Shown: piece after piece, positions 7,248 through 34,968 of the stretch
Position numbering within the stretch: the first letter of the stretch is position 1
How the letters are laid out: every line of letters starts with the position of its first letter
Virus record (IMG/VR): IMGVR_UViG_3300027773_000188
Location: 1-36,324 of that record
Strand: one strand, 5' to 3'
Source of the DNA: a virus
Length of the DNA stretch: 36,324 bases
Notes under the pieces: generated by a model
Told to the model about the DNA's origin: nothing
Database searches by the model: none
Seen by the model: the letters and a program-made list of their open reading frames with translations, nothing else
Position numbers and translations under genes: made by a program

Positions 7248-8786
7248 TTACCTCAAATAGTTATCCATTTTGGTGAATTCCCGGCCGACTTCCGACGCCG
7301 CCTCGAACTCCGGCACCCAGGGGGCGCCTTGCTCAATGGCATAGGTGAGCATGGCGCCGGCAATCGCGGCATCGCCGTGTCGCTGGCCGCCGTCGGCCCC
7401 CTTCGTGCGGATCGTGTCCGGAACTTTGGGAATCCCGCGCTCCATCCTCACCAGCCGATGATCGGCGAGGATGTCGGAGTCCTTTGCAAGCGTCATCGTT
7501 TTATCTTCCAGATGCGCCTTATATTTCGGCATCGCCTCCAGATACCATTTCGGCGTCGGCATGACCTGAAGGATGCGGGTGACGCCATAGCGCTGCATGG
7601 CGACCTCGGCAAGGTATTGGCCATTGCCGCGGGCGTCCATTGCGCCGCAAGCAAACCAGGGGACGCGATCGAGAAAATAAAAGAGAATCTGCCGCTGCTG
7701 CTCGAAAGGGACGTTCCGCAATTCGATCTCGCAGAGCGAGCGATAACGCAGCCGCTGCTCCTCGATGGCGGGTCGGATTACGCTAAGGTCGCCCGTCCGG
7801 CCGAAATCCTCCCCGAAGAAGACACGATGATTCGGATTGATCTTCCCCAAAACCGGATCGAGATGCTCCCTACACCAATCGAGCGCCGCCGCCTCGCGGA
7901 TCTCTTTGGACTCCTGCGCAAAGGCCGTCGAGCATTTCCAGCGAAGCACGGGGATTTCGGAATCCATGCAGCTCAAAACGAGCGCGCGGGTAAAATAGTT
8001 GCCGGAGCTGCCGGAGGGAATGCAAAACAATTCCTCATCGGCCGCATCGCCATAATCTCGGATAAGATTTGCGCGCCAGATTTCCTGCGCCTCCAGAGAC
8101 CATTCGCGGCCGAGGACCAGACAGATCCGCTGATAAAGCCCTTCCGCCAGCGCATCATCGAGGGTGACGCGGTGGAGCGAAAAACTTTTCTTCCCGGCGC
8201 GAATCTCTTGAACAAGATCATTGAATGGGTTATCTTCGCCGAAGTGCGTGGAGATAATCCGCAGCTTGCCCCCCCACATCAAGAGCGCCAAGCCGGCCTT
8301 GAGCATTCCTTCAAAGTCATCGTGGAAGGCGGCTTCATCAAAAACAAAGATCCCCTGCTTGGAGCGAAGGTTCCGGGGACACGATGAAAGCGCGGTGATT
8401 CGCCAGCCCGATTTGAACTCGATGTAAAAGGTATGGATCTCCTTGTCGCCATCTGCGATGACCTCTTCACCGACTGCGTCTGCTGCGAGCTGATAGGCGC
8501 GTGCCCACATCGCGCAATCTTGGATAAAGGTCCAGGCCATGTCCTTTCCATACCCGATATACCAGACATGGCTCCCCTTCCTCTTCGAAGCGTGGAGGGA
8601 GCAGTCAGACGCCTCTCCCCAGGAAAAACCGGTCCGGCGCGACTTCTCCGAGACCTTTACGGCCGCATCGTCGGAGACCCACCGCTGCTGATAAGGGAGG
8701 AGGATACCTCCTTCGATCTGGCGGAGGACCTCGAAATCCTGCTGCGGGTTGGCGCCGAAAATTTCTTTTGGATCAGTGACGGTCAA
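7248..8786 (-). CDS. Terminase large subunit (Mu gp28-like)
   Basis: This 512-residue protein is the DNA packaging motor. The N-terminal ATPase has an atypical Walker A (EKSRRTGFSW, residues 47-56) as in Mu gp28-type terminases, and a Walker B (IFVFDEAAFH, with Asp150 and Glu151). The C-terminal RNase H-like nuclease shows Asp-rich motifs: GEDFGRTGD, then GAMDARGNG, then a final HGDAAIA segment. It binds the portal, cuts phage DNA and pumps it into the head using ATP. In Mu-like phages the first cut lies in host DNA flanking the integrated phage. The gene begins immediately after the upstream zinc-finger gene. Confidence 0.93.
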   Translation of the reverse strand: MTVTDPKEIFGANPQQDFEVLRQIEGGILLPYQQRWVSDDAAVKVSEKSRRTGFSWGEASDCSLHASKRKGSHVWYIGYGKDMAWTFIQDCAMWARAYQLAADAVGEEVIADGDKEIHTFYIEFKSGWRITALSSCPRNLRSKQGIFVFDEAAFHDDFEGMLKAGLALLMWGGKLRIISTHFGEDNPFNDLVQEIRAGKKSFSLHRVTLDDALAEGLYQRICLVLGREWSLEAQEIWRANLIRDYGDAADEELFCIPSGSSGNYFTRALVLSCMDSEIPVLRWKCSTAFAQESKEIREAAALDWCREHLDPVLGKINPNHRVFFGEDFGRTGDLSVIRPAIEEQRLRYRSLCEIELRNVPFEQQRQILFYFLDRVPWFACGAMDARGNGQYLAEVAMQRYGVTRILQVMPTPKWYLEAMPKYKAHLEDKTMTLAKDSDILADHRLVRMERGIPKVPDTIRTKGADGGQRHGDAAIAGAMLTYAIEQGAPWVPEFEAASEVGREFTKMDNYLR

Positions 8787-9260: not shown

Positions 9261-9785
9261 CTACGCGGCGATTCCCAAAATCTTCTTTTTGATCGCATCG
9301 GCCAGCTCGTCCGACAGACCTTCCGCCTTCGCCATCTTCCCGATCGCCTCGGCCTCTTTCGCGAGCTTGTCTTTGAAGTCCATCTTCAATTTTTCCCGCT
9401 GGACGCTGGAGGATTGAAGCCGGGCCAGCGCCATCATTACTTTGGATGCTTCTTCCTGCTGCATATTAGAGAGGACCGGGTCCATCAGATATTCCATGAT
9501 GTTATTGAGCGCCACAGTCACGGCCGCCTCTTCCAGATTCAGCCCGTCTCCCCCTGCCTCGCTGACGATCGCCTTCGCTTGCTCCTTTACGGCCTTAAAT
9601 CGATTTAGCTGCCCGACAAAGTCTTTGACCTCCCGGCCGACCGCCGCCCGGCTAATGTCCTGACCGAGTTGGCGCAACCAATCGGTAATCTCCTGAATGG
9701 TATGGCCCTCACCCACTTTCTGATAGAACACATCGCGTACATCGCGGGGCATCCTGGAAACCTTGCTATGCCGTCGGTTGCCCAT
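9261..9785 (-). CDS. Terminase small subunit-like protein (Mu gp27, DUF3486)
   Basis: This 174-residue, largely helical protein matches the DUF3486 family that includes Mu gp27. The start GNRRHSKVSRMPRDVRD, the helix-turn-helix-like stretch GHTIQEITDWLRQLG, and SRAAVGREVKDF are typical. The family is thought to be the DNA-recognition (small) terminase subunit for Mu-like packaging. The gene precedes the large terminase, separated by the zinc-finger gene and a 90-base gap that contains a short inverted repeat. It is joined to the upstream gene by a one-base overlap. Confidence 0.87.
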   Translation of the reverse strand: MGNRRHSKVSRMPRDVRDVFYQKVGEGHTIQEITDWLRQLGQDISRAAVGREVKDFVGQLNRFKAVKEQAKAIVSEAGGDGLNLEEAAVTVALNNIMEYLMDPVLSNMQQEEASKVMMALARLQSSSVQREKLKMDFKDKLAKEAEAIGKMAKAEGLSDELADAIKKKILGIAA

Positions 9786-10640: not shown

Positions 10641-11135
10641 CTAGGGAACCATTTGTAAGTTTTCGACGGTGAAGACCAGCTCATATTTTCCATAGCCGGT
10701 GCCTCCGTCCGGTTTGTTCCATGTCCATTCGAAAAGGGCTTTATGCTTTTCGAAGGTAGCGGTTCCAATGGCAATATTATCGAGTGTGTCCATCGTCCAA
10801 TTCAGCATCCCGGAGAGGACGTCTATCACACAGCCATTCGCGTTCAGCACGTTTTGCTTGTTGCGGCCGTTGATTACCGTGCCGGTGGCCGCGTCATACA
10901 AAGTCAGTGTGAGGGTAGCGATCTGATCGGCGGTGAGGGGATTGCCGTTCTGATCGACCACCTGTATCGTCAGCGGCCGCGTTTGCCGCTCGGCGATCTT
11001 GTCGGTGAGGATCGTCCGATAATTCAAGACGGTCAGCTGCGGATTAATCAGCTTCACCAGCACCGGACCGGAAGGAGAAGACCCGCCTCCTCCTCCGCCA
11101 CCGCCACCCGCATTCGATAAAATCAGAATGCCCAA
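10641..11135 (-). CDS. Beta-rich phage structural protein, TTG start
   Basis: This 164-residue protein begins with TTG at 11135, directly after the stop of the upstream gene and downstream of a GAGGAAG site. Residues 10-18 are a run of glycines. The remaining part is rich in beta strands and includes RPLTIQVVDQNGNPLT followed by ATLTLTLYDAATG and a late GTATFEKHKALFEWTW. This matches the layout of receptor-binding or baseplate accessory domains that read as an immunoglobulin-like fold. It has no signal peptide, unlike its upstream neighbours. The likely role is a fibre or baseplate accessory protein, but I do not recognise a specific family. Confidence 0.55.
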   Translation of the reverse strand: MGILILSNAGGGGGGGGGSSPSGPVLVKLINPQLTVLNYRTILTDKIAERQTRPLTIQVVDQNGNPLTADQIATLTLTLYDAATGTVINGRNKQNVLNANGCVIDVLSGMLNWTMDTLDNIAIGTATFEKHKALFEWTWNKPDGGTGYGKYELVFTVENLQMVP

Positions 11136-11318
11136 TTACTTCCTCGCCTTCTCGATAATGGTGAAGCCGGCATTTTCAAGCTGGGTGAGGATTGCCTTCC
11201 AGCTCCATTCATCCAGGATCACCAGCCCCTTTAAATTTTGCGCGGCGAGCTCCGGAGAGTCGACCGGATGCTGCACTTGCAGCCCGGCTAATTTATTGAT
11301 TAGCTGATCGCTCGTCAT
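11136..11318 (-). CDS. Small hypothetical protein coupled to fibre-like gene
   Basis: The frame starts at ATG 11318, overlapping the stop of the fibre-like gene by 4 bases (ATGA), and encodes 60 residues: MTSDQLINKLAGLQ at the start, helical, and ending in FTIIEKARK. No signal peptide, cysteine or known motif is visible. The tight coupling on both sides (the next gene starts on the base after its stop) supports that it is real. Small proteins at this place after a tail fibre can be assembly chaperones, but that is only positional reasoning. Confidence 0.6.
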   Translation of the reverse strand: MTSDQLINKLAGLQVQHPVDSPELAAQNLKGLVILDEWSWKAILTQLENAGFTIIEKARK

Positions 11319-14300
11319 TTGTTCACAATCGCAAAGGTGTCGCCGACCTGCGGCGTACCGGTGAGCCCCGGCGAGACAAGCTGCAAGCAGCCCCCTGCGG
11401 CCGTCAGCGCATAGCCATTGATCGTGGCGTTCTGGCCGGAGAGATTCCCGGATGTCATCTTGATCAGCTGGGGAGATTTCCAAGCATTCGGCGCCGTCTG
11501 ATTGAGCGATGTAGCAAAAACCGTCGCGGAATTCACCCCGCCGTTGCAGCCCGATCCGCCCGCGACGACGGCGCCGGTCGGCAGCCCCGAGGCGTTCTCA
11601 TCGATCGCATTGGTGGCAAATTTGGAATTGGTGATCACCCCATTATCGAGGCCGCCAATTTGCGATCGGACCAGGCCGGCGGTAAAGGTCAGCGGAGACG
11701 GGATCTTTGTATTGAACGCAGAGGAGGAGACCAGCGTCCCGGTGTCGGCCGTATGCCGATCCCAAAGACCGGTATTGCTCGGCGCGTTGCAGGCGCCGAT
11801 CCCATTGCAGAGATAGCCATTGATCAAGGCGATTGTGGCATTATCCGGCGCGGTATAGGAGGAGGCCGCCATGCGGGAGTTGATCGCGGCGTTGATGTAA
11901 TTTCCAATCAGATACCCCGCCGTGCCGGGGGCATAGGCGCCAGGGACGGCGGTGGCCAAAGGATCGCCGGCACTTCCCGCGGAGTTAATCTTACTCCCGA
12001 TCGTCCCCGCCGAATTAAACGAGGTGGCCGTGGCATTAAGCACCGAGGTGGCCGGATCTTGGCCCGAAGCATATCCGCCGACGGTGACGTTGCCCGCCGC
12101 CTGCCGGCTGGCGATCGTCGCGTTGATATTGTTCCCGATAATATTGCCCGCGGTTCCCGATCCATAGGAGCCGGGAAGTGGGGTGGCCCAGGGGTCGCCC
12201 GCGGTGCCGGCAGCGTTAATCTTGGCGCCGATCGTTCCGGCCGAGTTGAAGCCGCTCGCTGTCGCGGTCAAAACAGAGGTCGCCGGATCTTGTCCCGAAG
12301 CATAAGCGCCGACCGTCACATTGCCGGAGGGCTGGCGGGAAGAGACCGTCGTGTCGAGATTGGGCGCCACCGTGGAGTTGATCACCCCGGCCCCCGCCGC
12401 CTGCATGTTCGCGTCGACTCTTCCGCCGATCAAATTATTGATCGCTGAGCCATTGATCTTTGCGAGATCGGTCCGGCCGTTGGCGTCCACCGAGAGGGAA
12501 TTCCCATGCGTCACCGGCCGCAGGTTGTCGCACTGCGGCGCCGGAACGATGTCGAAGTAATCCCCCACCGAGATGAAGGCGCTGATATCTTCTCGCGTCA
12601 CGACTTGCAATGTGGAGAAGGTCGTGCTTTCAATGCAGGAGGATTTTTCAATCGCCCGATCGCTGGCGCGGTAGACCTGGATCAGATGGAATTTATCCCA
12701 TTGACCATCCGTAGTGATCCCCGTCGAGAGGGTCAATGTGGTTCCGCTCTTCGCCGTGATCGTTCCGGCCGGCTTCACCGCCTTCGGTCCAATGCCATCA
12801 TCCGCAATGGAGACATTCCCCGAGCTCAATGCTATTTGTCCGGTACCGATGCCGTTGGAGAGGAGCACAGAGGCACCGATATCGCGGGCGGTCAGCAGTG
12901 TTCCTCCCATATATTTGGCGCTGACGTTGAGGACATTGTTGCTGTCCAGCGTGATTGCCGTCCCAAGCGTCTTGCCCAGATCGACCCGACCGGAGCCGTC
13001 GATCGAGAGGCTGGAGAAATTGGCCGGCAGCGTGAAGGTGGCCATGCGAGAGCTGACCGTCGCGTTGAGATTGTTGCCGATGATATTTCCGGCGGTGCCC
13101 GCTCCATACGAGCCAGGGAGTGCGGTCGCCCAGGGATCACCCGCGGTGCCGGCGGCATTGATCTTGGCGCCGATCGTCCCCGCCGAGTTGAAGCTGCTCG
13201 CTGTCGCGGTCAAAACAGAGGTCGCCGGATCTTGTCCCGAAGCATAGGCACCGACTTGCGCATCCACTCGGCCGCCAATTAGATTATTGATGGCTGAGCC
13301 GTTCACTTTGGAGAGATCGGTCCGGCCGTTGGCATCGACCAAAAGTTGGTTCTGGTGAGTGATCGGCCGCAGATTGTCGCAAGCCATTGAGGGGAGGAAA
13401 TCAAATTTATCGCCCACGGTGATCAAGGCGCTGATATCCTCCCTCGTGACAACCTGCAGGGAAGAAAGGGTCGTTCCGGTAATACAGCTGGACGCCTCCG
13501 TCGAACCATCCGAAGGTTTGTAAACCGAGATCATCCAGAAGTTATTGTATTGGTTGTCCGCCAAAATCCCGCCCGAAACGGTCAGCGTCGTCCCACTCTT
13601 CGCGCTGATTGTCCCGGTGGACTGGAAGCAAAGCGGACAGATCGCATCATTCTGCAGAAGCACCTTTCCTCCGGAGAGCGATATCTGATTCGCCCCGGTG
13701 CCGCTTTGCACCTTCACCGCATTGTTCACATCGGTGGTCGGAAGACCACCGTTTGATCCCGGCGCGATATTCGGAAGCGCGGTTTTCACGAGCATCCCGA
13801 AACTGTTCGCTGTGGTGTTGTTCGCGGTCAATTGATCCCATACCGCCTGCGCGTTCTGCGCGGCGGTCGGTGCCGATCCTCCTCCGCCCCCGGAAGCAAA
13901 ATATGAAAGTGGGATCATGAAGACGCTGGTATTATCCGGCGTGATGGTCCAAGCCGTGTCGACCGTGGCGACCTTGGTCGCCCCGACATAGCCAGTGATC
14001 TGGCGCGGCACTTGCCCTGCGCCTGTGCCGCCGGTGATCATGATCGCGGCATTCAAATAAGCATTATCGGTAGCGCTGGCGCTCGCATCGAGCGTGATGG
14101 TGGTCGCGGTGCCCGCTTGCGCCGTGCCGGAGCGGACGACGATCTCTCTTTGTCCGAAGCTGCCGTTGCTTACATGGCTCGATCGGCTCGCATCCCAGAC
14201 GGCATTCTCGACCGAGGTCTTCATGGTGGAGGTGAGATCGCCGGAGACCGGAACGGCGCCATTGGCGGCGCGAAGATCGACATCGGTTAGATCGATATTT

Positions 14301-14722
14301 AAGACGGCCGGGACAACATTTAGGGCAGTGGTCGTCTCTTCCCTGCATTGAATTCTGACCCGATCGACGCCAGAGGCCAATGCCGCATCGGGAATATCCA
14401 AACGGTATTCTCCGGGATCGTGCGTGGAGTCTCTCTCCACAAATCCACCAGAAGTATAAGCGCCTCCTGTGGTTTGGGTGGCGAGGATGATTTGGGTTGG
14501 AGTGCCTGTTGCCCCGCGGGTGTAGTAACAAGCGAAATTGGTGGAATTGTAAACGAGGCCTGTTTTACCGGCCCCGGCATTCGAGGAGCTATCCCAAATA
14601 TGGAAGTCAACGGATTGGCTGGTCGCCCCTTTATGGAAAGAGAAATATTCCGAAGCCTGCGCCGGCAGAAGCGACGCCAGAAGCAAGACCATCACTAGAA
14701 GCCCGATTATTTTTTTCCGCAT
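11315..14722 (-). CDS. Large repeat-rich fibre-like protein with signal peptide
   Basis: The protein has 1135 residues from ATG 14722; I prefer this start over one four codons upstream because the GGAGAGG ribosome site lies between the two. Residues 1-23 form a Sec signal peptide ending near AQA. The following domain (FHKGATSQSVDF through DIPDAALASG) is a beta-sandwich also common in phage tail-tip and fibre proteins. The rest is built from internal repeats: three copies of about 70 residues (GQDPATSVL ... GTIGAKINAAG ... GTAGNIIG) and a duplicated block of about 120 residues with VVTREDIS and VDANGRTDL. No enzyme motif is visible. It may be a secreted adhesin or a fibre; the signal peptide argues for export across the inner membrane. 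Confidence 0.72.
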   Translation of the reverse strand: MRKKIIGLLVMVLLLASLLPAQASEYFSFHKGATSQSVDFHIWDSSSNAGAGKTGLVYNSTNFACYYTRGATGTPTQIILATQTTGGAYTSGGFVERDSTHDPGEYRLDIPDAALASGVDRVRIQCREETTTALNVVPAVLNIDLTDVDLRAANGAVPVSGDLTSTMKTSVENAVWDASRSSHVSNGSFGQREIVVRSGTAQAGTATTITLDASASATDNAYLNAAIMITGGTGAGQVPRQITGYVGATKVATVDTAWTITPDNTSVFMIPLSYFASGGGGGSAPTAAQNAQAVWDQLTANNTTANSFGMLVKTALPNIAPGSNGGLPTTDVNNAVKVQSGTGANQISLSGGKVLLQNDAICPLCFQSTGTISAKSGTTLTVSGGILADNQYNNFWMISVYKPSDGSTEASSCITGTTLSSLQVVTREDISALITVGDKFDFLPSMACDNLRPITHQNQLLVDANGRTDLSKVNGSAINNLIGGRVDAQVGAYASGQDPATSVLTATASSFNSAGTIGAKINAAGTAGDPWATALPGSYGAGTAGNIIGNNLNATVSSRMATFTLPANFSSLSIDGSGRVDLGKTLGTAITLDSNNVLNVSAKYMGGTLLTARDIGASVLLSNGIGTGQIALSSGNVSIADDGIGPKAVKPAGTITAKSGTTLTLSTGITTDGQWDKFHLIQVYRASDRAIEKSSCIESTTFSTLQVVTREDISAFISVGDYFDIVPAPQCDNLRPVTHGNSLSVDANGRTDLAKINGSAINNLIGGRVDANMQAAGAGVINSTVAPNLDTTVSSRQPSGNVTVGAYASGQDPATSVLTATASGFNSAGTIGAKINAAGTAGDPWATPLPGSYGSGTAGNIIGNNINATIASRQAAGNVTVGGYASGQDPATSVLNATATSFNSAGTIGSKINSAGSAGDPLATAVPGAYAPGTAGYLIGNYINAAINSRMAASSYTAPDNATIALINGYLCNGIGACNAPSNTGLWDRHTADTGTLVSSSAFNTKIPSPLTFTAGLVRSQIGGLDNGVITNSKFATNAIDENASGLPTGAVVAGGSGCNGGVNSATVFATSLNQTAPNAWKSPQLIKMTSGNLSGQNATINGYALTAAGGCLQLVSPGLTGTPQVGDTFAIVNK
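11870..13253 (-). repeat. Internal tandem-type repeats of fibre-like gene
   Basis: Within the fibre-like gene three long copies of a unit of about 210 bases occur near 11870-12090, 12100-12312 and 13040-13253. Each encodes GQDPATSVL, then GTIGAKIN and then GTAGN/YxIGN. The second and first copies share long identical stretches, for example around the GGATCTTGTCCCGAAGC motif. A longer block containing VVTREDIS and VDANGRTDL is duplicated as well (near 12390-12790 and 13260-13700). Such repeats allow length change by recombination. Confidence 0.75.
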
Positions 14723-14740
14723 AATCCTCTCCATATTGTC

Positions 14741-14794
14741 TTATCGACCTCTCAAACCCTTCATCCGCGCACCCCGCACCGACAACGCCCCGCC
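14741..14794 (-). repeat. Direct repeat encoding shared C-terminal tail (copy A)
   Basis: The last 54 bases of the 345-residue protein gene are almost identical to the last 54 bases of the 328-residue protein gene at 15795-15848, with one visible mismatch (base 14771 A against G in the other copy). They encode the same 17 residues. The sequences immediately upstream are unrelated apart from a Gly/Ser-rich linker, so the repeat is confined to the tail. Confidence 0.9.
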
Positions 14795-15778
14795 CGAGCT
14801 GCCACCGCTTAGAGAGAAAGCGTTGGAGTAAACCTGATTGGAATCCTTCACGCACGTCCAATAAGGTCCGCCGCCCGCCGGAAGACTGACTTTGATTGCT
14901 ATAGCCGAGTCTGAAATATTCGTTAGCTCTTGCCGGACAACGGTCCCCGCGCCACAGATCGAGGATGTATTGATCTCCACCGTGGGTCCATATATCTGCG
15001 TCGAACCCCAAGAGAATGCATCCATCCAAGTGGTAATATCGACTGCTTGAGATGCGCCAATATTGACCATGCCGATCAGAATGGTATTAATGGAATCAGT
15101 AATTCCCGGATCTAAAGAAAGGAGCTGTTGCCCTTCTACCCAATACTCGTTGAGTCGGGGAGAGCTCGATTTCCAATGGCCCATGAAGTCGTACCATCTT
15201 TGCGGTTGGAATTGGCCGGTTGGATTATTCACTTCCGAATGCGGATTGCCGTATTTAAAGCTCCAATAATCTGAGTAGGTGCAGGTCGCATCCCATCCCA
15301 AATCGACATAATAATTATTCAAATCGTAGAACTGTTTTAGAAAGCTATCCGGCCAGCAGCCTGAATTAAGCTGCATCGCAATATAGGCGTGAAACCAAAC
15401 ATCCTGACCGGAGGAGTTGGGAACGCCATTATAAGAAGTGCAAGGGGTCGGCGCTGCGCAAACTGGCGGGGGTGTATGATTAATCTCGAATTTAATCGAC
15501 TTTGAACCATGAATTTTAAACGTGGAATCATAGCTGCCTCCGCACGGACCTTGCCCGCAATACCCGTCCGCACTCGGATTGCTTCCTTCAAAGCTGAAGG
15601 AGTTCGCATTTGTCGTGAAATAGGAATCCCAATTTGTTTTATCCCAAGCAATCAGATTCGAACCGCTGATTGTTAGCGCCGATCCGTTCGTCACGGAGCC
15701 GGAGCTTCCACTAATCGTCGGCGCGGCTTGTGCCGCATGAGAAAACAAAAGAAAGATAAGGATGATTTGAATAATCAA
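14741..15778 (-). CDS. Secreted lectin/lyase-like protein with basic C-terminal tail
   Basis: This 345-residue protein starts with a signal peptide (MIIQIILIFLLFSHAAQA). Residues about 19-42 look like the first strands of an IPT/TIG-type or similar Ig-like domain. The large middle part is rich in Trp, Tyr, Ser and Gly, with segments such as SIKFEINHT, DVWFHAYIAM and EYWVEGQQLLSLD that resemble the jelly-roll (concanavalin A-like) fold of polysaccharide lyases and lectins. A Ser/Gly linker leads to the C-terminal tail ALSVRGARMKGLRGR, which the neighbouring 328-residue protein also has. A carbohydrate-binding or -cleaving role outside the cytoplasm is likely, but I do not recognise a precise family. 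Confidence 0.65.
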   Translation of the reverse strand: MIIQIILIFLLFSHAAQAAPTISGSSGSVTNGSALTISGSNLIAWDKTNWDSYFTTNANSFSFEGSNPSADGYCGQGPCGGSYDSTFKIHGSKSIKFEINHTPPPVCAAPTPCTSYNGVPNSSGQDVWFHAYIAMQLNSGCWPDSFLKQFYDLNNYYVDLGWDATCTYSDYWSFKYGNPHSEVNNPTGQFQPQRWYDFMGHWKSSSPRLNEYWVEGQQLLSLDPGITDSINTILIGMVNIGASQAVDITTWMDAFSWGSTQIYGPTVEINTSSICGAGTVVRQELTNISDSAIAIKVSLPAGGGPYWTCVKDSNQVYSNAFSLSGGSSGGALSVRGARMKGLRGR

Positions 15779-15794
15779 AACTGCTCCCTTTTAA

Positions 15795-15848
15795 TTATCG
15801 ACCTCTCAAACCCTTCATCCGCGCGCCCCGCACCGACAACGCCCCGCC
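15795..15848 (-). repeat. Direct repeat encoding shared C-terminal tail (copy B)
   Basis: This is the second copy of the tail-coding repeat; see the copy at 14741-14794. It starts at the stop codon and covers the final 17 codons. It lies about 1054 bases from the first copy, at the same place relative to its gene. Confidence 0.9.
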
Positions 15849-16781
15849 GGTACTTCCACCCCCGCCTCCAGTGGAATAGGGGCAGCCGATCTGCCCCGTG
15901 TTCGACACGGCATAATCATCCCAATCCTCATAGAGATCGCCGGACCCCTGGTTTCCATCGGTGCCGCTCGTATTGGATGGCACCACGAATCCCTGAAAGG
16001 TCGTGACTCCCCAGGGAACCACAGTCGAATGAAATCGCTGCGTGCCGTTTACCCACACATCCGCTTGCCCATCGGCTGCAACATTCGTAGACGACGCCTT
16101 AATATGAAATTCGAGGCACTGCCAACTGCCGTCCGAACAAGCGGTTGGATTCGCCGTGCCTGGGCAAGTCGTTGCACCGCTCGGATTCCAAAAATTCCAA
16201 TCTCCCCACCCGTTTTGCTGAATATTGGTGCTTCCATTACTCCAAAAAATGTAGTTATACTCGAAGGCAATATAGGCGTTCGCATTTCCGCTCGTATCGC
16301 GGGTATAGATCATCTTGTGACCGCCCGTTTGATTCGGATGGACGAGAAGAACATCATCATCTTCTAAGGCGTACCCTGCTTGATACCGAACATATGCCCG
16401 AACCCAAATCTCAGATTGACACGTTCCAACGCCGACCCAACAAAATTCAATATCAAGAGGCGAGGACTCCGAATTGCGAACGTGTGGATAGTTGTACTTC
16501 CGATATCCCTTTCCGCCTCCGCCGCCAGGGAAATTTGCAACAGGGTCAATAATGGAAAAGTTTCCATTGCCGGAATGATTACTTCCCTGAAAACGTCCCG
16601 GAAGAGAATCGCATTGAGGGGACGCCGTATTCGCCCAAGTGACGTTAACGGTAATGGACGACGCGGTACAGTTGGCTCCGCCGAAAGTCGTTGACCAGGG
16701 CACAGACAACTCAAGGTTCTGCGCCTGTGAAATAGAGGCACTAAAAATCAGAAAGAAAAATATCCCGAATGAGAATCTCAC
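15795..16781 (-). CDS. Secreted lectin/lyase-like protein with basic C-terminal tail (second)
   Basis: This 328-residue protein has a signal peptide (MRFSFGIFFFLIFSASISQA). The mature part is rich in aromatic residues, Asn and Gly; GYRKYNYPHVRN, IWVRAYVRYQAGY, HKMIYTRD, and CLEFHIKASS are strand-like pieces consistent with a beta-jelly-roll of the concanavalin A-like type. Several cysteine pairs suggest disulfides formed outside the cytoplasm. A Gly-rich linker precedes the C-terminal tail ALSVRGARMKGLRGR. The start shares one base with the stop of the glycosidase-like gene. It probably binds or acts on polysaccharide, but no catalytic residue can be named. Confidence 0.65.
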   Translation of the reverse strand: MRFSFGIFFFLIFSASISQAQNLELSVPWSTTFGGANCTASSITVNVTWANTASPQCDSLPGRFQGSNHSGNGNFSIIDPVANFPGGGGGKGYRKYNYPHVRNSESSPLDIEFCWVGVGTCQSEIWVRAYVRYQAGYALEDDDVLLVHPNQTGGHKMIYTRDTSGNANAYIAFEYNYIFWSNGSTNIQQNGWGDWNFWNPSGATTCPGTANPTACSDGSWQCLEFHIKASSTNVAADGQADVWVNGTQRFHSTVVPWGVTTFQGFVVPSNTSGTDGNQGSGDLYEDWDDYAVSNTGQIGCPYSTGGGGGSTGGALSVRGARMKGLRGR

Positions 16782-18289
16782 TAAAACTGCCCCCTCTTAC
16801 TTCGCCCGCGCAGCAGATGGCCGCGGCCGGTGAGGTTTGATGCTCCTGGGACGATCGCCTTTAAATAGAGCACTTGATCCTCCGTCCCGGAAGGCGCGGT
16901 GAAAGACTGAGAAGAAGATCCCCCCGCGACATTCGAGGCGGTAGTGATCGCCCCTGTCGTGGGATTAAACCATTCCACGGCGAGCTGCTGCGTGGTCCAT
17001 GAGAGATCGACTGTAAATGCTCCGCCCGCGCCGGTCGGCTGATAGATCAGCGCTTCTCCTCCGCTCGCCGCTTTGTTTGCCAGCGCGTAACCGGTGGAAG
17101 CGAGCGAGGTCTGGGGCGTCATCGCGCCGAGGTTCATTCGACTGACATAGGAGGCCGCTTGACCGAGATTGGTCCGGAAATTATTCCATCGAGTATCGAC
17201 CCCCGTGCAAACGCCGTTTGCCGGGGAGGCGCACAGATTGCGACTATTCGCAGGGATATAAATGATGTAGGGGTCCATGAACATGACCCCATTCCCATAC
17301 ATGAAATTTTGCCAAAGATACTGGCGGTTCACCTGCGCGGAATCGAGGTAGAGGAAATAGGTGTGATCGGAGTCGTTCACGTTGACTTTGCAGGTGGGCG
17401 AGCCGGTGCCACAGCTCGGCGCCAGCGGAGAAAACTTCGCCTTCGGCGCAACGATATCGGCGCTGCTGTTATAGAGCGTAGTGTCCACCTCGAAAGAAAC
17501 GTTGATCGAGGCGTAGAGGATGGGATGCTGATAAGTAAGAGAGGCCTCGGTCGATCTGATCGTCGCCATCACATGCTCGACCCAGCAAGTTTGGATTCCA
17601 TTCGGCCCTTCTTCTTGTGGTTCCCAAATCACTCCCGGTACGCTATTGAGCGTCTGAACGAGCTTGACGACGTAAGCATCCATAATCCCCATAATCGGAT
17701 TAGAACAGCTCGTAAAAGCGCCGGTCGATCCGCCGTCATTGATTGAATTGATGTTGTTGCCGTTGTGAAAGGGGAAGCCTGATCCCGCGCCGTCATCGTC
17801 GGTGACGCCCAGCCCGTCGAAGATCTGCACGATCGGATAGATATTCACATTATTGAGCTGCTGCGCCCGCGCGAGCACACGGTCGAAAAATGGCTGATTG
17901 AAAGTATTAAAATCAAATTTCGGCAGGCCATCATCCGCATTCCCCGGACCGGTCCGCGCCCAGGGATGCAAGGTCATATGCCACGTTCCCCCTTGCCAGT
18001 TAAAATAGGTCGGAAGGTCTTTGTGCCAGAGGATTGTGCAGTTGTGGCCATAACTTTGGAGAAAAGACACGTAACCGTTGAAATCAAACGCCGGCGGAGA
18101 TGTGGACTGACTAGTGTCCTGCACGTCATCCCATGTGTGCGAACAGAAAGGAAGCCACGCCTTTCCCGTGGTGGGATCTTTAAAATAGGCCGGGTGAACG
18201 GGATGCGCGACCAGGGGTGCGGTAATCGCGGCTTGTGCGGAGACCGCCCAAAGGAAGATTCCAAGAATGAGAAAGAAAAGCTTTTTCAT
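16781..18289 (-). CDS. Secreted glycoside hydrolase-like protein (DUF4038-type barrel)
   Basis: This 502-residue protein has a signal peptide (MKKLFFLILGIFLWAVSAQA). The mature part begins with VHPAYFKDPTTGKAWLPF and then a series of segments typical of the DUF4038/glycosidase TIM-barrel group (HTWDD, SYGHNCTILWH, FFDRVLARAQQLNNVNIYPIV). A GVIWEPQEEG stretch near residue 220 sits where barrel glycosidases carry an acid residue. A small C-terminal beta domain (EALIYQPTG then WFNPTTGAI) resembles the putative collagen-binding domain found behind such barrels. The last residues, TGRGHLLRGRSKRGQF, are again Arg/Gly-rich. Expected role is cleavage of an extracellular or surface glycan; substrate is unknown. 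Confidence 0.7.
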   Translation of the reverse strand: MKKLFFLILGIFLWAVSAQAAITAPLVAHPVHPAYFKDPTTGKAWLPFCSHTWDDVQDTSQSTSPPAFDFNGYVSFLQSYGHNCTILWHKDLPTYFNWQGGTWHMTLHPWARTGPGNADDGLPKFDFNTFNQPFFDRVLARAQQLNNVNIYPIVQIFDGLGVTDDDGAGSGFPFHNGNNINSINDGGSTGAFTSCSNPIMGIMDAYVVKLVQTLNSVPGVIWEPQEEGPNGIQTCWVEHVMATIRSTEASLTYQHPILYASINVSFEVDTTLYNSSADIVAPKAKFSPLAPSCGTGSPTCKVNVNDSDHTYFLYLDSAQVNRQYLWQNFMYGNGVMFMDPYIIYIPANSRNLCASPANGVCTGVDTRWNNFRTNLGQAASYVSRMNLGAMTPQTSLASTGYALANKAASGGEALIYQPTGAGGAFTVDLSWTTQQLAVEWFNPTTGAITTASNVAGGSSSQSFTAPSGTEDQVLYLKAIVPGASNLTGRGHLLRGRSKRGQF

Positions 18290-19137
18290 TGAAGCTCTTC
18301 CAATCCTTTCTTAGAAAAAATAAACGAGAGGTATTCATTTTTTTGGCGCGGATCTAAAAGTAGATGACTCCATAGCCATGCGCCCTTGCCGATTCCGCCG
18401 CCGCCCCCGCCGCCATCGCCGGCGACGTTGTACGCATACCAGACGTACATCTGATCGGTCGCCGATCCGCAGTCGAACGGCAATCCTGGAATCAGATGAT
18501 AGGTGTTCCCCTCCGTGTCGGAGACCGAGGCAGTGGACGCATTGTTTCCAATCCGGGATGCGACAAAAATAAAATCTCCTGCCGTAACCGGATTTGTAAA
18601 GATCAGCTGATCCGAGGCCACCGCGGAACCGGAATCATGCCCGGTTCCCTGGACGAAGGCCGGTGTGGAAGTGGTCGCTTTAAATGTCGCCAGCAGCGCC
18701 ATATAGTTTGAAGACCCCGTATTATTCCAGGTGGCCGTTTGCGCGCCGGTACTGGTGACCGCTTTCCATTCCACCGAGGTACGATTCGCCGTCGGCGTAT
18801 CATCGATCGTATAGCCGGCGCCGGCGCCGAAAGTGACCGCCGATCCCGTGATCAATACGCCGATCACCAATTCATTATTTTGAGAGGTCGCCGCAGATGT
18901 TCCCGTGGTCGGGGTGGAAGTGGTCGCCACGCAACTGCCGCTAGTGGTGGGATTCTTCACGTTCACATCGAGAGGATCGCTCCCGGTCTGAATCCCGTTA
19001 AATTCTTCAATGCGCGAACGGACCGTCTGCGTCGCGCCGGTCACCGTGATGGTGACGATATTATTCGCCGCTCGCGCCGGCGCGGGCCAGAAGAGGATAG
19101 AGCTCACCAGAAAGGCAATCAGCAATCTCTTAAGCAT
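18286..19137 (-). CDS. Secreted beta-rich protein of the exported module
   Basis: This 283-residue protein has a signal peptide (MLKRLLIAFLVSSILFWPAPARA). The mature part is rich in Thr, Ser, Gly and Ala, with strands such as VTITVTGATQTV, NELVIGVLITG, VSDTEGNTYHLI and MYVWYAYNVAG, arranged as in a jelly-roll surface domain common in environmental phage and bacterial proteins. A Gly run precedes a C-terminal segment of about 35 residues. It is the first gene of the exported module and starts 15 bases after the holin-like gene, with a GAGGGGAGG ribosome site. I do not know a function. Confidence 0.6.
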   Translation of the reverse strand: MLKRLLIAFLVSSILFWPAPARAANNIVTITVTGATQTVRSRIEEFNGIQTGSDPLDVNVKNPTTSGSCVATTSTPTTGTSAATSQNNELVIGVLITGSAVTFGAGAGYTIDDTPTANRTSVEWKAVTSTGAQTATWNNTGSSNYMALLATFKATTSTPAFVQGTGHDSGSAVASDQLIFTNPVTAGDFIFVASRIGNNASTASVSDTEGNTYHLIPGLPFDCGSATDQMYVWYAYNVAGDGGGGGGGIGKGAWLWSHLLLDPRQKNEYLSFIFSKKGLEELQ

Positions 19138-19152
19138 GCGATCCTCCCCTCC

Positions 19153-19524
19153 TCAAGCCGCCGGCTTTTTCGGCTCGGCTTCACCGAGGAAGAGTCGGAC
19201 GAGTTCACCGGGGATGCTGTCGGGTCCATAGTGCGTCTGAACGGATTTCGCGAGGTCATAAATCCAGCCGCCGACGGCGCCGAAGAGCGTTCCCGATGAG
19301 AGGATGGCCATGACGTTGCCGTCGGTGAGCTGCATGAGATCGCTCGGCAGGGCGACGCCGGTTAACTTGGAGATCGCGGCGATGATGCACCCCGCCAGGA
19401 TGGGACGCAGCGGCTTGAACCAGATGGGATAGGAATCACGCATCTTGGATAAGATTTTTTTAATGACCTCGGTAATGTAGGGAACCAGGATCGGAAGCAC
19501 CGCACTCCAGATTGCGACCATCAT
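19153..19524 (-). CDS. Holin-like membrane protein
   Basis: This 123-residue protein follows the endolysin with a 4-base overlap. It has hydrophobic segments near residues 2-19 (VAIWSAVLPILVPYITEV), 41-58 (PILAGCIIAAISKLTGVA) and 75-90 (AILSSGTLFGAVGGWI), with positive charge between the first two and a charged C-terminus ending in EAEPKKPAA. This fits a holin with two or three membrane segments, which forms holes in the inner membrane to release the endolysin. Small phage membrane proteins of other roles cannot be excluded, but the neighbouring amidase makes a lysis role likely. Confidence 0.7.
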   Translation of the reverse strand: MMVAIWSAVLPILVPYITEVIKKILSKMRDSYPIWFKPLRPILAGCIIAAISKLTGVALPSDLMQLTDGNVMAILSSGTLFGAVGGWIYDLAKSVQTHYGPDSIPGELVRLFLGEAEPKKPAA

Positions 19525-20057
19525 GTTTTGACTCCTTTCTCTCCGAATAAGATCGGATCAAATGTGGGGGAAAGTTTCTGCCAGGCTTTGAGGTCTCCTC
19601 TGACTTTGTTCATATCCATGTTTGGGCATGTCTTCCCTTCGGCTTTTCCCGAATCGGTCTCGCAGTGGCCCAGTATATTCTCGATTGGGATGTGATAGAC
19701 GAGGGTAAGATCGGCTAGTAGGCGCAGCAGCGAGAACATCTGCTTCGTACTGAATTCCTGCACGCCGATGACGCAGATGCCGATCGATTGATCGTTGTAG
19801 CCGAGGGCGTGCGCTCCGATTTCGACATCCTGAATAAAGCCGTCATCGTCCAGAGTACGGCCGCATTCGATGCTGCCGTCGAGGGAGGGAACGAGGTGCG
19901 CGTGCTGCATGTGGGAAAAGGTAGGAAGACCGTTGAGGATGACAAAATGATAGCCAATATCCTTGAAGCCTCGATCCAGATGCCACCCGCGAATTGCACG
20001 AGCGCATCCCCATTCAGAATCGGAGCAATGGATAATGGCGTTTTTGATCTGGCGCAA
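19521..20057 (-). CDS. N-acetylmuramoyl-L-alanine amidase endolysin
   Basis: This 178-residue protein is an Amidase_2/PGRP-type enzyme related to T7 lysozyme. It cleaves the bond between muramic acid and the first peptide residue of peptidoglycan. Zinc ligands expected for the family are visible: His10 (IIHCSDS), His131 (GHCETDSGK) and Cys144 (KTCPNMDM), with the catalytic Tyr36 in GYHFVI. The typical GWHLDRGFKDIGYH and IGICVIG motifs are present. No signal peptide is seen, so release depends on the holin-like neighbour. The start is TTG at 20057 behind an AGAGGT ribosome site. Confidence 0.93.
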   Translation of the reverse strand: MRQIKNAIIHCSDSEWGCARAIRGWHLDRGFKDIGYHFVILNGLPTFSHMQHAHLVPSLDGSIECGRTLDDDGFIQDVEIGAHALGYNDQSIGICVIGVQEFSTKQMFSLLRLLADLTLVYHIPIENILGHCETDSGKAEGKTCPNMDMNKVRGDLKAWQKLSPTFDPILFGEKGVKT

Positions 20058-20128: not shown

Positions 20129-20473
20129 TTATTTCTCTGGGGGAGGAAGCTGGTCAAGAAGGGATGTTTGCCGATCGTCCGGGTGATCGACAATCGTCCG
20201 GATCTGGCTGACTGTTAGGTAATACTTGCGCGCGAGATCCTTATGATTCGCGCCGTCGAACTGTGCTCTGATCTTCTCGTTGCGCAGTTTCAGCAGCGGC
20301 CGTTCGAGCTTGGGAAGATAGTGCATCATGCCGCCGAACTCCCGCGCCAGGATCAGCGCGGCGTGAATGCCAACTTTCGTGGCGATCTCATCATACGGGC
20401 TTGGGAGATCGACCGGCTTTAACTCCAGCATCCACTCCTGCATACCGACAGTTAGTGGGGTCTCAATGCTCAT
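20129..20473 (-). CDS. Mor-like transcription activator
   Basis: This 114-residue protein resembles the Mor family of Mu-like phages, which activates the middle/late promoter after replication starts. The N-terminal dimerisation-like half has SPYDEIATKVGIHAALILAREFGG, and the C-terminal half is a helix-turn-helix (LRNEKIRAQFDGANHKDLARKYYLTVSQIRTIV), both characteristic. It sits just ahead of the lysis genes, exactly where an activator of late transcription should be. The next gene starts 71 bases downstream, and this gap would hold the promoter it acts on. No second activator (Mu C) is visible in this window. Confidence 0.85.
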   Translation of the reverse strand: MSIETPLTVGMQEWMLELKPVDLPSPYDEIATKVGIHAALILAREFGGMMHYLPKLERPLLKLRNEKIRAQFDGANHKDLARKYYLTVSQIRTIVDHPDDRQTSLLDQLPPPEK

Positions 20474-21078
20474 TTCTGGTCCTCTGTTTTTCGGTTGATC
20501 TGCTCTTCGATCTCTGCCAGTTTAAGAAATGCGCCGGGGGGAATCCGTTTGACGGCCGTCACCCGGTGCGCGAGGTCGGCGAGAAACTTCCTCTTCCACT
20601 CATCGAGACCCTCCCGCCCTTGCAGTGCCGCGACCCGGTTCATCAACGCGGGGCCGCCTTTCCTCGCGTCCCGATTCCATATCGCAGTGAGCGCCTCGTG
20701 GAGCTTGCCGGCCTCCTCGCGCGTCTGCGGCCAGACGCAGCCGCAGGCTTTCTTGGAAATCGACTTCAGCCCGGCTAGGCTGATCTGCAGCGTGGCCCGG
20801 ATGGCCTCAATGGTCTCCAGCTGCACCGGAGTGGGGAGATCTCCCGGCGCCGCTTCCTGCCGCCCCTTGTGGCGGGCGATGACGGCGATATCTTTGGTAA
20901 GGCGGCGCTTGACCTCTTCCGCCTGGGCGTAGGTGAGGCGGCGCGTGGAGCGCTGTCCGGTGAGCTCTTCGATAATATCGCGCATGCGGGACTCGCCTTC
21001 TCCCTCGCCGACCAGCTTGCTCAATTGGAGGGCGAGGCCCCACATCGCATTATTCTGGCCGAGGGTTCGGGGTTGCAT
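20470..21078 (-). CDS. GemA-like protein (DUF1018/gp16 family)
   Basis: This 202-residue protein matches the DUF1018/GemA family of Mu-like phages: the N-terminal GQNNAMWGLALQLSKLVGEGEGESRM, then EELTGQRSTRRLTYAQAEEVKRRL, and the late-half CGCVWPQTREEAGKLHEALTAIW. GemA modulates host gene expression and, through DNA gyrase/topology effects, has been linked with host DNA decondensation in Mu. It precedes the Mor-like gene with a 4-base overlap, as in many Mu-like phages. The start has an AAGGAG ribosome site. Confidence 0.85.
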   Translation of the reverse strand: MQPRTLGQNNAMWGLALQLSKLVGEGEGESRMRDIIEELTGQRSTRRLTYAQAEEVKRRLTKDIAVIARHKGRQEAAPGDLPTPVQLETIEAIRATLQISLAGLKSISKKACGCVWPQTREEAGKLHEALTAIWNRDARKGGPALMNRVAALQGREGLDEWKRKFLADLAHRVTAVKRIPPGAFLKLAEIEEQINRKTEDQK

Positions 21079-21268
21079 AGGATCTCCTTACGTCTGAGAT
21101 GAATCCAAACCAGTTGAATCGCCGTCCCATGAAATCCTGGGCGGAGACCTTGCAATATTTTCCGCAGATCGAAACAACCTGGCCGGTCGCTAGGTAGGTC
21201 TCAAACCTCCGCGACTTTACGGGGATCACTACGAGGTCGCCTTCCCTGATCGGCGCTTCTTCCGTCAT
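21050..21268 (-). CDS. Small hypothetical early protein
   Basis: The frame starts at ATG 21268, which overlaps the lipoprotein stop by 4 bases, and encodes 72 residues. The sequence has EGDLVVIPVKSRRFETYLATGQVVSI followed by YCKVSAQDFMGRRFNWFGF, consistent with a small beta-barrel. A longer frame continues upstream but its extra residues overlap the lipoprotein in another frame and lack a ribosome site. It overlaps the start of the GemA-like gene. No function can be assigned. Confidence 0.65.
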   Translation of the reverse strand: MTEEAPIREGDLVVIPVKSRRFETYLATGQVVSICGKYCKVSAQDFMGRRFNWFGFISDVRRSYATPNPRPE

Positions 21269-21576
21269 TGTTTCCTCCTTTGTGCCGCAACCGCCTTCAG
21301 CGCGATCTGATAGCCCAGCAGTTCCTGCACTTTGTCTTCCCAGCAGCGGACTATCTGATACTTCCAATCCAACTCGTAAAGGCATTCTTCTGAGAAGATC
21401 ACATACTTGGGTGGAAAAGATGGCACCTCATTTTCAGAGATAGAGGGCGATAAATCTTTAGAGGTTATCATTTCCGGCGAGCGCGTCCCTTTTTCTTCTG
21501 CCTTCGGATCGCTTGCCTTGGCCTGTTGACTGCTACAGGCCCCGAGTATAAGAAAAATGATGAATAGTTTTTTCAT
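21265..21576 (-). CDS. Early-operon lipoprotein
   Basis: This 103-residue protein has a lipoprotein signal peptide (MKKLFIIFLILGAC, lipobox LGAC). The mature part is Ser/Lys/Glu-rich up to about residue 55, then an ordered segment with two cysteines (ECLYELDWKYQIVRCW). It would be attached to a membrane in the periplasm. It is translationally coupled on both sides by 4-base overlaps. Phage early lipoproteins can block superinfection, but there is no direct sign of this here. Confidence 0.65.
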   Translation of the reverse strand: MKKLFIIFLILGACSSQQAKASDPKAEEKGTRSPEMITSKDLSPSISENEVPSFPPKYVIFSEECLYELDWKYQIVRCWEDKVQELLGYQIALKAVAAQRRKQ

Positions 21577-29680: not shown

Positions 29681-30142
29681 GCACAAGATTTTAATATAAT
29701 ACTTCATAATCTTACGGAATTTTTGAATGCAAAGTCCGATGCGGACATTGCAAGGGGGCTCGGTGTCACCCCTCAGGCGCTCTATGGCTTCAAAAAAAAG
29801 GGGAAATTTCCTCATGAGCTTTTAGTAAACTTCAGCTTTAAACATAAACTATCGCTTGATTGGCTATTTACTGGGAAGGGACCCAAATATTCGACGGCGG
29901 GAGAGCTGCATGCTGCTGTTGCGGAAGAAGCGACCTATTCTAAAGACCCATTCCAGGACAGTCTCGAAAGGCTACAAAAAACAATAGATCTCATTAAATC
30001 AACCGCGGCAGAGTTGAAGCTTGAGATTCAACCTCAGAAAATGAGTCATATTATCGAATTTGCTTTTGCTCATCGGCTCGATGCAGGAGGGATAAGGGAT
30101 CTTTTAGTATTATTGGCCTGGGTTGCAGAGGAGGGAAAATGA
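29678..30142 (+). CDS. CI-type phage repressor
   Basis: This 154-residue protein has a helix-turn-helix domain of the phage CI repressor family: NAKSDADIARGLGVTPQALYGFKKKG at residues 13-38 and the family signature HKLSLDWLFTGKGP at about 56-69. The C-terminal part is helical and probably mediates oligomers; it has no LexA-type self-cleavage Ser/Lys site that I can see. It is the only long phage gene on the plus strand, facing the early operon, as in Mu and related phages. No ribosome site precedes the start, so a leaderless or weakly translated message is possible. Confidence 0.85.
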   Translation: MAQDFNIILHNLTEFLNAKSDADIARGLGVTPQALYGFKKKGKFPHELLVNFSFKHKLSLDWLFTGKGPKYSTAGELHAAVAEEATYSKDPFQDSLERLQKTIDLIKSTAAELKLEIQPQKMSHIIEFAFAHRLDAGGIRDLLVLLAWVAEEGK

Positions 30143-30630
30143 AATATTTTTCTTTTTTGGCTGCTACTGGATTCTTTTTTATTTTTTTATATGGTTGCGC
30201 TGAGATAGCTCCAGCAGAGAGGGACATTCAAAGGGAATTTACTTTTGACTTTTCTATACCTGGTAAGAAAAAAAACGAGCTTTGGAAAAGCGCCAGGGAT
30301 TTTTTTGCTGAAAGTTTTTCTGATAGCCGGAGCGTCACTCGTGTATCCGATGAAAACGATGGCACGATTATCGGAAGGGCTCTTGCCCCTTGGAATCTTG
30401 CAGCGAATGTCTGTTACTCGGAATTCCATATTAGATTTGCAGCAAAAGATGAACGCGCACGGCTTCAATTTGAATTAATTGAAGCTGCTGTTCCTGTAAC
30501 CGGTTGCGGATATGATTGGCCGACGAGAAACGGTTATGATCAAATTGTTTCTTTATTTAATTCTACTGCAGTGAACTTAAAATCCGCTCTCTCCGGTAAA
30601 GGATCGACCGATAAATTGAAGGATTTTTGA
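30139..30630 (+). CDS. Lipoprotein co-transcribed with repressor
   Basis: This 163-residue protein has a lipoprotein signal peptide (LAATGFFFIFLYGC, lipobox LYGC). The mature part resembles small lipoproteins with a TATA-box-binding-like (DUF4468-type) fold: RDIQREFTFDFSIPGKKKNELW, then DFFAESFSDSRSVT, DNDGT-type turn, and a final helix. The ATG overlaps the repressor stop by 4 bases, behind a GAGGAGG site, so both are expressed in the lysogen. A gene expressed together with the repressor and directed to the envelope is a good candidate for superinfection exclusion or another lysogen trait, but this has not been shown. Confidence 0.7.
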   Translation: MKYFSFLAATGFFFIFLYGCAEIAPAERDIQREFTFDFSIPGKKKNELWKSARDFFAESFSDSRSVTRVSDENDGTIIGRALAPWNLAANVCYSEFHIRFAAKDERARLQFELIEAAVPVTGCGYDWPTRNGYDQIVSLFNSTAVNLKSALSGKGSTDKLKDF

Positions 30631-31809: not shown

Positions 31810-32190
31810 TTAGTCCTCTTCCGGCAGCATAATGGTGACCACCGGATCGAGATTGTCCCCTGGGCCGCAGATCGACTTCAGGCGGACGAGCTGCTTCTTC
31901 CCCTCCTTCGTGAATAAGACAGAGAAGAAAAGCCGATCGCCTTCCGGCTGTTGACGCTTGATCACCGAATGGAGAACCCACAGGAGATCCCAAAGGCGCC
32001 CCTGCTCCGTTTCTCCGAGTCGGCGGGCGCCTTCATCCGGAACGATCCAAGAGTCCCAGAGAACCCGAGTGACCGCGACCGGATAGCGACTTCCCACCTG
32101 CTTTGCGACAGAGGAGACCTCGACAAGAACGCCGTCCTCAATCGCCTGTTTTCTCGAATATGAGAAGATCAATTCTCCTTCGTTAAACAT
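31810..32190 (-). CDS. Conserved small protein of mobile elements (DUF6573-like)
   Basis: This 126-residue protein has the layout FSYSRKQAIEDGVLVEVSS followed by AKQVGSRYPVAVTRVLWDSWI and LWDLLWVLHSVIKRQ, and a beta-rich end (FFSVLFT ... DNLDPVVTIMLPEED). This matches a small family commonly found on plasmids and integrative elements (DUF6573). No catalytic function is known. It follows the acetyltransferase gene after 4 bases, in one operon. Confidence 0.75.
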   Translation of the reverse strand: MFNEGELIFSYSRKQAIEDGVLVEVSSVAKQVGSRYPVAVTRVLWDSWIVPDEGARRLGETEQGRLWDLLWVLHSVIKRQQPEGDRLFFSVLFTKEGKKQLVRLKSICGPGDNLDPVVTIMLPEED

Positions 32191-32194
32191 CGCG

Positions 32195-32641
32195 TCACTC
32201 CATTTGGTTTGGGTTCACCTCAATTGCTGGTTCGGAGGTTTGAGGCCGCTGGTAAACCAAATGCCAGATCAGCTGGCCAGCCATCTCAAAGAAGGCCCTC
32301 TGCTCAAAACCGAGGTTATGAAAGAGCCGCAGGCAGACTGGGTTGTCATCTCGGACCGTGCAGCAGACCAGCGGCGTTTGGATGCTCCCCAGCGCCGTTC
32401 GGACCATGCTCTTTGCGATCCCCTGTCGTCGGTACTCCGACAAGACCACGAGATGCCGCAGCTCGGTCAGATACCAAGACCGTTTTTTTACGCAGATCGT
32501 TCCCTTGATCTTTTCCTCGTCGACCAGAACATAGTAGGCGCCGTGAAACAACGGAGACGGGCTCCCTTCCAGCCGAGAGGTTTTGACGATTTCGCGGACC
32601 TTTCTCATGGTCCTCTTTTTTTTGACTCGCTTTAATACCAT
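32195..32641 (-). CDS. GNAT family N-acetyltransferase
   Basis: This 148-residue protein is a GNAT acetyltransferase. The acetyl-CoA-binding motif is seen as LVVLSEYRRQGIAKSMV (residues about 71-87), followed by the typical CTVRDDNPVCLRLFHNLGF segment. It transfers the acetyl group of acetyl-CoA to an amine; substrate is unknown. The N-terminal 30 residues are basic and may be an addition. The ATG lies inside the end of the amidotransferase-like gene (10-base overlap), so the two are coupled and probably act on a related product. Confidence 0.9.
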   Translation of the reverse strand: MVLKRVKKKRTMRKVREIVKTSRLEGSPSPLFHGAYYVLVDEEKIKGTICVKKRSWYLTELRHLVVLSEYRRQGIAKSMVRTALGSIQTPLVCCTVRDDNPVCLRLFHNLGFEQRAFFEMAGQLIWHLVYQRPQTSEPAIEVNPNQME

Positions 32642-33450: not shown

Positions 33451-33471
33451 GGTCGGTCTCCTTAAAACAGA

Positions 33472-33500
33472 CTCCTCCCCCGTTGCCCGGCGGGGAGGAG
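33472..33500 (-). promoter_or_regulatory. Hairpin in amidoligase-amidotransferase gap
   Basis: A perfect 9-bp GC-rich stem (33472-33480 with 33492-33500, loop 11) lies in the 79-base gap between the amidoligase and amidotransferase genes. On the minus strand it is followed by TCTGTTTTAAGGAG, including the ribosome site. It may stop part of the transcripts or shape relative expression of the two genes. The T run is short, so a full terminator is less likely. Confidence 0.5.
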
Positions 33501-33529
33501 AGATGGCCCCGGCCGGTCCGGGAGTTGGG

Positions 33530-34867: not shown

Positions 34868-34968
34868 GGTGCCCTCCAACGGACCACCGCCCCCTGCAGG
34901 CGATGGTCCCATGTTTCCGCCATACGACAGGGCGCGGCGCCCACGAAGGGCAAATGAGTGGATCTTTT

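Follow-up and report, generated by a model that had tools for sequence, protein, structure and literature searches.

Five putative Sec-exported proteins encoded between the lysis and packaging genes of an uncultured Mu-like phage

The late operon of an uncultured Mu-like phage contains five adjacent genes, gp1 to gp5, whose products each begin with a Sec-type signal peptide. The genes come from a 36,324-bp virus record of IMG/VR, referred to here as the window. The reading that we hold, at slightly better than even, is that gp1–gp5 constitute an accessory Sec-exported block in the Mu-like late operon that acts on envelope or surface polysaccharide around lysis. Morphogenesis of tailed phages is taught as a cytoplasmic process and virion proteins are taught as having no signal peptide, and exported sugar-cutting, binding or fibre-like proteins are unusual in a virion-building operon. 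The recurrence of signal-bearing late proteins of the appendage and glycosidase types would mean either that the dying host is given secreted surface-active proteins or that the cytoplasm is not where all of the virion is made.

The hallmarks of a Mu-like phage in the window are DDE_2/Mu-transpos_C, Mor, GemA, Phage_Mu_Gp27, Portal_Mu (E=1e-114) and Phage_Mu_F. The window also encodes an AAA protein, an amidase, a Mu-type large terminase, a Portal_Mu–MuF fusion, a Phage_cap_E-type capsid gene and a Phage_tail_S gene, and it ends with a tail terminator-like gene at position 1, just short of the tail module. As claimed in the first-pass annotation, all five open reading frames are present between the lysis and packaging genes; they are adjacent on the minus strand, with Mor, amidase and holin genes on one side and small genes leading to gp27 and the terminase on the other (Table 1). 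The overlaps of 1–4 bases described there exist between gp1 and gp2 (4 nt) and between gp2 and gp3 (1 nt), whereas gaps of 16 nt and 6 nt separate gp3 from gp4 and gp4 from gp5, respectively. The five genes lie downstream of Mor, the amidase and the holin on the same strand with tight spacing, and no excess of promoters or terminators is seen in the block region (3 promoter-like sites vs 8.1 expected). The simplest reading is a single late transcription unit. Elsewhere in the window, a DUF4468 lipoprotein gene (30139-30630, plus strand) adjoins a repressor-like gene and is a candidate for a lysogenic-conversion or exclusion protein. A small lipoprotein ORF with an LGAC lipobox (21265-21576, minus strand) is located upstream of the GemA and Mor genes and overlaps another ORF (21050-21385) in a different reading frame. 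Beyond the repressor end, genes for SSB, an amidoligase, a class-II glutamine amidotransferase and a GNAT acetyltransferase are consecutive (31810-35538, minus strand), possibly forming a peptide- or cell-wall-modification cluster of the phage or of the host flank.

Table 1 Genes of the late region of the window, the tail segments of gp3 and gp4, and runs of signal-peptide genes at other loci (designated L)
Feature	Position	Strand	Remarks
Mor/C-type transcription activator	20129..20473	-	PF08765 E=8e-17; upstream boundary of the late unit
Endolysin, N-acetylmuramoyl-L-alanine amidase	19521..20057	-	PF01510 E=5.9e-12; PHROG 822 amidase E=4.4e-26
Holin-like gene	19153..19524	-	PHROG 1299 holin E=0.018, weak; 15-nt gap to gp1 downstream
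gp1	18286..19137	-	283 aa; signal peptide
gp2	16781..18289	-	502 aa; signal peptide; glycosidase-like; C-terminal Collagen_bind_2 (PF12904)
gp3	15795..16781	-	328 aa; GTG start; signal peptide; jelly-roll/polysaccharide-lyase-like
C-terminal tail segment of gp3	15795..15848	-	duplicate of the gp4 tail
gp4	14741..15778	-	345 aa; TTG start; signal peptide; C-terminal tail as in gp3
C-terminal tail segment of gp4	14741..14794	-	53/54 nt identical to that of gp3
gp5	11315..14734	-	1139 aa; signal peptide; phage Ig-like/BppU_N-like domain; repeats
164-aa protein downstream of gp5	10641..11135	-	Gly-run N-terminus; no signal peptide
Mu gp27-like small terminase	9261..9785	-	PF11985 E=9e-26
Large terminase (Mu gp28 type)	7248..8786	-	
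L114	4762-7782		three signal-peptide genes in the same slot as gp1–gp5
L105	438-3634		three signal-peptide genes in the same slot; one matches PHROG 3758 ('virion structural protein') with E=2e-21
L141	6435-7759		same slot; fibre protein in which the signal peptide is followed by Mtd_N and collagen domains
L173 (MAG titled Nitrospirae)			two signal-peptide genes between the capsid gene and a DUF1320-like gene
L099	capsid gene to DUF1320-like gene		GH130/GH32-like glycosidase, then BppU_N protein, both with signal peptide
L016			four signal-peptide genes after a tail-tip-like gene, upstream of lysis-like genes

Signal peptides were called not by SignalP but by a custom heuristic that evaluates the hydrophobicity of the h-region, the charge of the n-region and the AxA site; the strict rule demands an n-region charge of at least +1, and the relaxed rule drops this demand. 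The h-region of each of gp1–gp5 consists of 9 residues with a mean Kyte-Doolittle value of 2.6–3.5, and the AxA-like cleavage sites are ARA|A in gp1, whose signal peptide is MLKRLLIAFLVSSILFWPAPARA, AQA|A in gp2 and gp4, SQA|Q in gp3 and PAQA|S in gp5. A second segment of strong hydrophobicity is absent from the mature proteins, whose highest 19-residue means are 0.8–1.75. gp1, gp2, gp3 and gp5 pass the strict rule (4 of 5), gp4 fails it, having neither Lys nor Arg in its n-region, and all five pass the relaxed rule. The claim that all five proteins carry signal peptides therefore holds, for gp4 by the relaxed rule only. Of 4292 ORFs of at least 90 aa in phage and prophage loci, 139 (3.2%) are flagged under the relaxed rule, and the chance of a run of five such genes is about 1e-6 at this background rate. 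Within the window, this rule flags only gp1–gp5 and the lipoprotein ORF near the repressor, and gp1–gp5 are the sole genes flagged in the late and packaging region. Chance ORFs or wrong starts were rejected, there being no alternative start in gp5 between the signal peptide and the domain. Spanins and other lysis proteins (o-/i-spanin, SAR-endolysin) were rejected on the basis of the sizes of gp1–gp5 (283–1139 aa), which show no lysis-family match, and single-pass membrane proteins were rejected as well.

Judged from its sequence, gp5 is a phage appendage-type protein that appears to have gained a signal peptide. Its earlier description as a generic repeat protein of 1135 residues (the length from the second ATG; 1139 from the first) is not borne out; a phage Ig-like/BppU_N-like domain, residues 29–157, begins right after the predicted cleavage site. 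This domain is present in 290 IMG/VR contigs, nearly always without a signal peptide. The homologues mostly start at the domain itself ('MAK', 'MST') or hold it within a longer protein, and a signal peptide precedes it only in the window and in L016; 'signal' calls in L345 and L359 were rejected as false positives within the domain. The domain was modelled with a pLDDT of 89. Most of the viral proteins that match it in fold are from phages; the top hit is an uncharacterised 733-aa protein (E=9e-11), and tail, tail-fibre and BppU_N proteins are among the weaker ones. A fold search of the PDB gave weak Ig-like matches only (E>0.002), and gp5 has no significant match in PHROG or Pfam. No relative of full-length gp5 was found in viral contigs, and a comparison with phages gave partial matches only, in four records. 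In one annotated phage, a homologue without a signal peptide is encoded between the portal and minor capsid genes. Because homologues of gp5 are found in such structural neighbourhoods, a virion part fits better than a free enzyme.

The mature forms of gp1 to gp5 contain 2, 8, 8, 8 and 12 cysteines, respectively. These even counts alone are weak evidence (1 in 32), and cysteine parity across 18 signal proteins from seven contigs, of which 13 have an even number, is weak evidence as well. Within the gp5-type domain, the pair C41 and C102 is present in both members with a genuine signal peptide (the window and L016) vs 1 of about 83 members without one, an association with p about 0.001 (3/85 x 2/84), uncorrected for relatedness. 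The eight cysteines of mature gp2 occupy alignment columns in which all seven homologues have no cysteine. The rarity of signal peptides ahead of the gp5-type domain, the C41/C102 association, the even counts and the cysteine gain of gp2 together argue that the signals are functional. We conclude from these sequence features that the signal peptides of gp1–gp5 are genuine, and the proteins are predicted to leave the cytoplasm late in infection. The first-pass annotation had offered secreted enzymes or adhesins provided to the host, surface-remodelling factors used during lysis and fibres assembled outside as options; what is well supported here is export, with signals added to known domains, exported relatives of gp2 and gp3, and cysteines both paired and gained.

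gp2 matches PF12904 with 34 bits against a cut-off of 22. Of 296 genomes from the phylum to which a MAG titled Nitrospirae belongs, 23 contain full-length homologues (best E 1e-60). In a Deltaproteobacteria-titled phylum, 1 of 198 genomes gave a match, which is partial (E=2e-4). The Pfam match and the full-length homologues uphold the glycosidase label given earlier, with the activity predicted, and we take the family to resemble the DUF4038/GH140-like architecture. Several of the chromosomal relatives are signal-peptide proteins or lipoproteins, and two of the loci examined are set among glycosyltransferase genes. In the motifs that probably form the active site (NE-type and DxDH), the Glu and the Asp are retained and the Asn before the Glu is replaced by Glu, so that the putative acid/base motif deviates from the standard NE in the alignment with homologues. 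The C-terminal tail of gp2 is basic. No relative of gp2 was found in viral contigs, phages or plasmids, and a sequence search of the PDB with gp2, gp3 and gp4 gave nothing useful.

gp3 has signal-bearing chromosomal jelly-roll relatives in the phylum of the MAG titled Nitrospirae (best phmmer E=1.4e-18). Its putative polysaccharide-lyase-like relation rests on these secreted homologues, since there is no Pfam match to polysaccharide-lyase families at E<=0.1. The jelly-roll label, which had been assigned to gp1, suits gp3 by virtue of the same homologues. gp1, which has a Gly-rich linker near its C-terminus, and gp4 gave weak matches only, those of gp1 being chromosomal; no relative of gp4 was found in viral contigs, and its AlphaFold2 model, predicted alone, has a pLDDT of 31, too low for use. 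gp3 and gp4 end in the same tail, GGALSVRGARMKGLRGR in gp3, and the bodies of the two proteins do not align with each other despite the near-identity of the last 54 nt. The tail appears to be a recently duplicated C-terminal tag; like tails on unlike bodies are what a common docking tag, or modules exchanged recently, would produce. A degenerate pattern of the tail, searched at the DNA level, had no match in other viral contigs.

The comparison set comprised 160 loci reached via the terminase, and L016 came from outside this set. Several of the 160 loci carry, independently of the window, consecutive signal-peptide genes other than spanins. The block is absent from the close terminase relatives L170, L171 and L230, and its absence there indicates that it is accessory. 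The run at L105 (438-3634) includes signal-peptide versions of small phage proteins of the PHROG 3758 and 4137 families, and a 786-aa repeat protein of this locus has an Arg-rich end (RNRTLTWATRNRTLTVQ) comparable with the basic tails of gp2–gp4. In a separate observation, some major capsid proteins have an extra N-terminus of ~45–50 residues (L189:6459-7484, L200:9436-10479 and L165:16234-17280; weaker in L176, L099 and L101), the capsid protein of L189 being a PF10124 gpT (E=2e-127). The extra N-terminus consists of a signal-peptide-like helix and a second hydrophobic stretch, and most relatives begin at the capsid domain. It is possible that this extension is a membrane anchor for head assembly.

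If gp1–gp5 are an exported block acting around lysis, they would be made together with the endolysin and the holin; cleavage and disulfide-assisted folding would take place beyond the inner membrane, and the proteins would loosen or bind a presumed surface glycan, keeping progeny from being trapped and letting them spread. gp2 and gp3 at least belong to families of exported host-type proteins. The same signals might instead belong to virion appendages, which would be exported, disulfide-folded outside the inner membrane and docked on finished particles upon mixing at lysis; gp5 would be an adaptor or fibre, gp2–gp4 spike-like enzymes and the gp3/gp4 tail a docking peptide. The phage-type Ig-like fold of the first domain of gp5 and the unsignalled homologue between portal and minor capsid genes agree with such appendages, as do signals ahead of virion families elsewhere (the Mtd_N and collagen fibre of L141, PHROG 3758 in L105, BppU_N in L099) and gp3/gp4 tails that are alike at 53 of 54 nt on bodies that cannot be aligned. 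Moreover, in vitro addition to particles is possible for some tail spikes and fibres. However, the nearest relatives of gp2 and gp3 are free chromosomal proteins, the gp3/gp4 tail is seen in no other viral contig, and no tailed phage is reported in the literature searched to load appendages in this way. We regard appendages as the main rival and a serious one, though unlikely on balance. In the one literature collection searched, appendages of tailed phages are nowhere described as having signal peptides, which does not by itself prove novelty. It is doubtful, as a general proposition, that in some tailed Mu-like phages virion fibres, spikes or decoration proteins are Sec-exported, disulfide-bonded outside the inner membrane and attached only at lysis.

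A role of gp1–gp5 in lysogenic conversion or superinfection exclusion, by altering the surface of the prophage host, is improbable. Exported glycan-active proteins encoded close to lysis genes are classical moron-like cargo, and gp2 has its relatives among envelope or secreted proteins of hosts; however, gp1–gp5 are on the late strand, in tight linkage with the genes for lysis and packaging. Because of this linkage and the promoter-like sites falling short of expectation, expression of gp1–gp5 in the lysogen is not expected. We give still less credence to hydrophobic N-termini serving as membrane-assembly anchors of proteins that stay in the cytoplasm. The similar N-terminal extensions of some Mu-like gpT-type major capsid proteins (L189, L200 and L165), which could not be exported if these proteins build capsids, speak for such anchors, but those extensions have a second, hairpin-like hydrophobic stretch that gp1–gp5 do not have. 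Moreover, cleavage motifs are present in all five proteins, and exported homologues exist for gp2 and gp3.

The order of lysis genes, Mup25/26, gp27 and TerL in Chromohalobacter phage YPCBV-1 and Shewanella phage MuM16-1 is the same as in the window. However, their lysis-to-terminase region consists of small genes only, and large genes with signal peptides do not form a block there. Like the putative enzymes of the window, the GH32 enzymes of Bacillus phages SP10, phi-NIT1 and SPG24 are phage enzymes predicted to act on an extracellular glycan, but they are stated to lack the signal peptide present in related bacterial enzymes (PMC4595243), whereas gp2 has one. gp2 resembles the glycosidase-like Collagen_bind_2 (PF12904) proteins in its full-length alignment with chromosomal members and its above-cut-off match, and differs from them in being phage-borne, in its eight extra cysteines, in having Glu rather than Asn ahead of the putative acid/base Glu and in its basic C-terminal tail. 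Likewise, gp5 resembles the N-terminal domains of tail-fibre and baseplate proteins of the BppU_N and Mtd_N types in its Ig-like fold, with phage proteins as the best viral fold matches, but differs from them in the signal peptide in front of the domain and in the cysteine pair.
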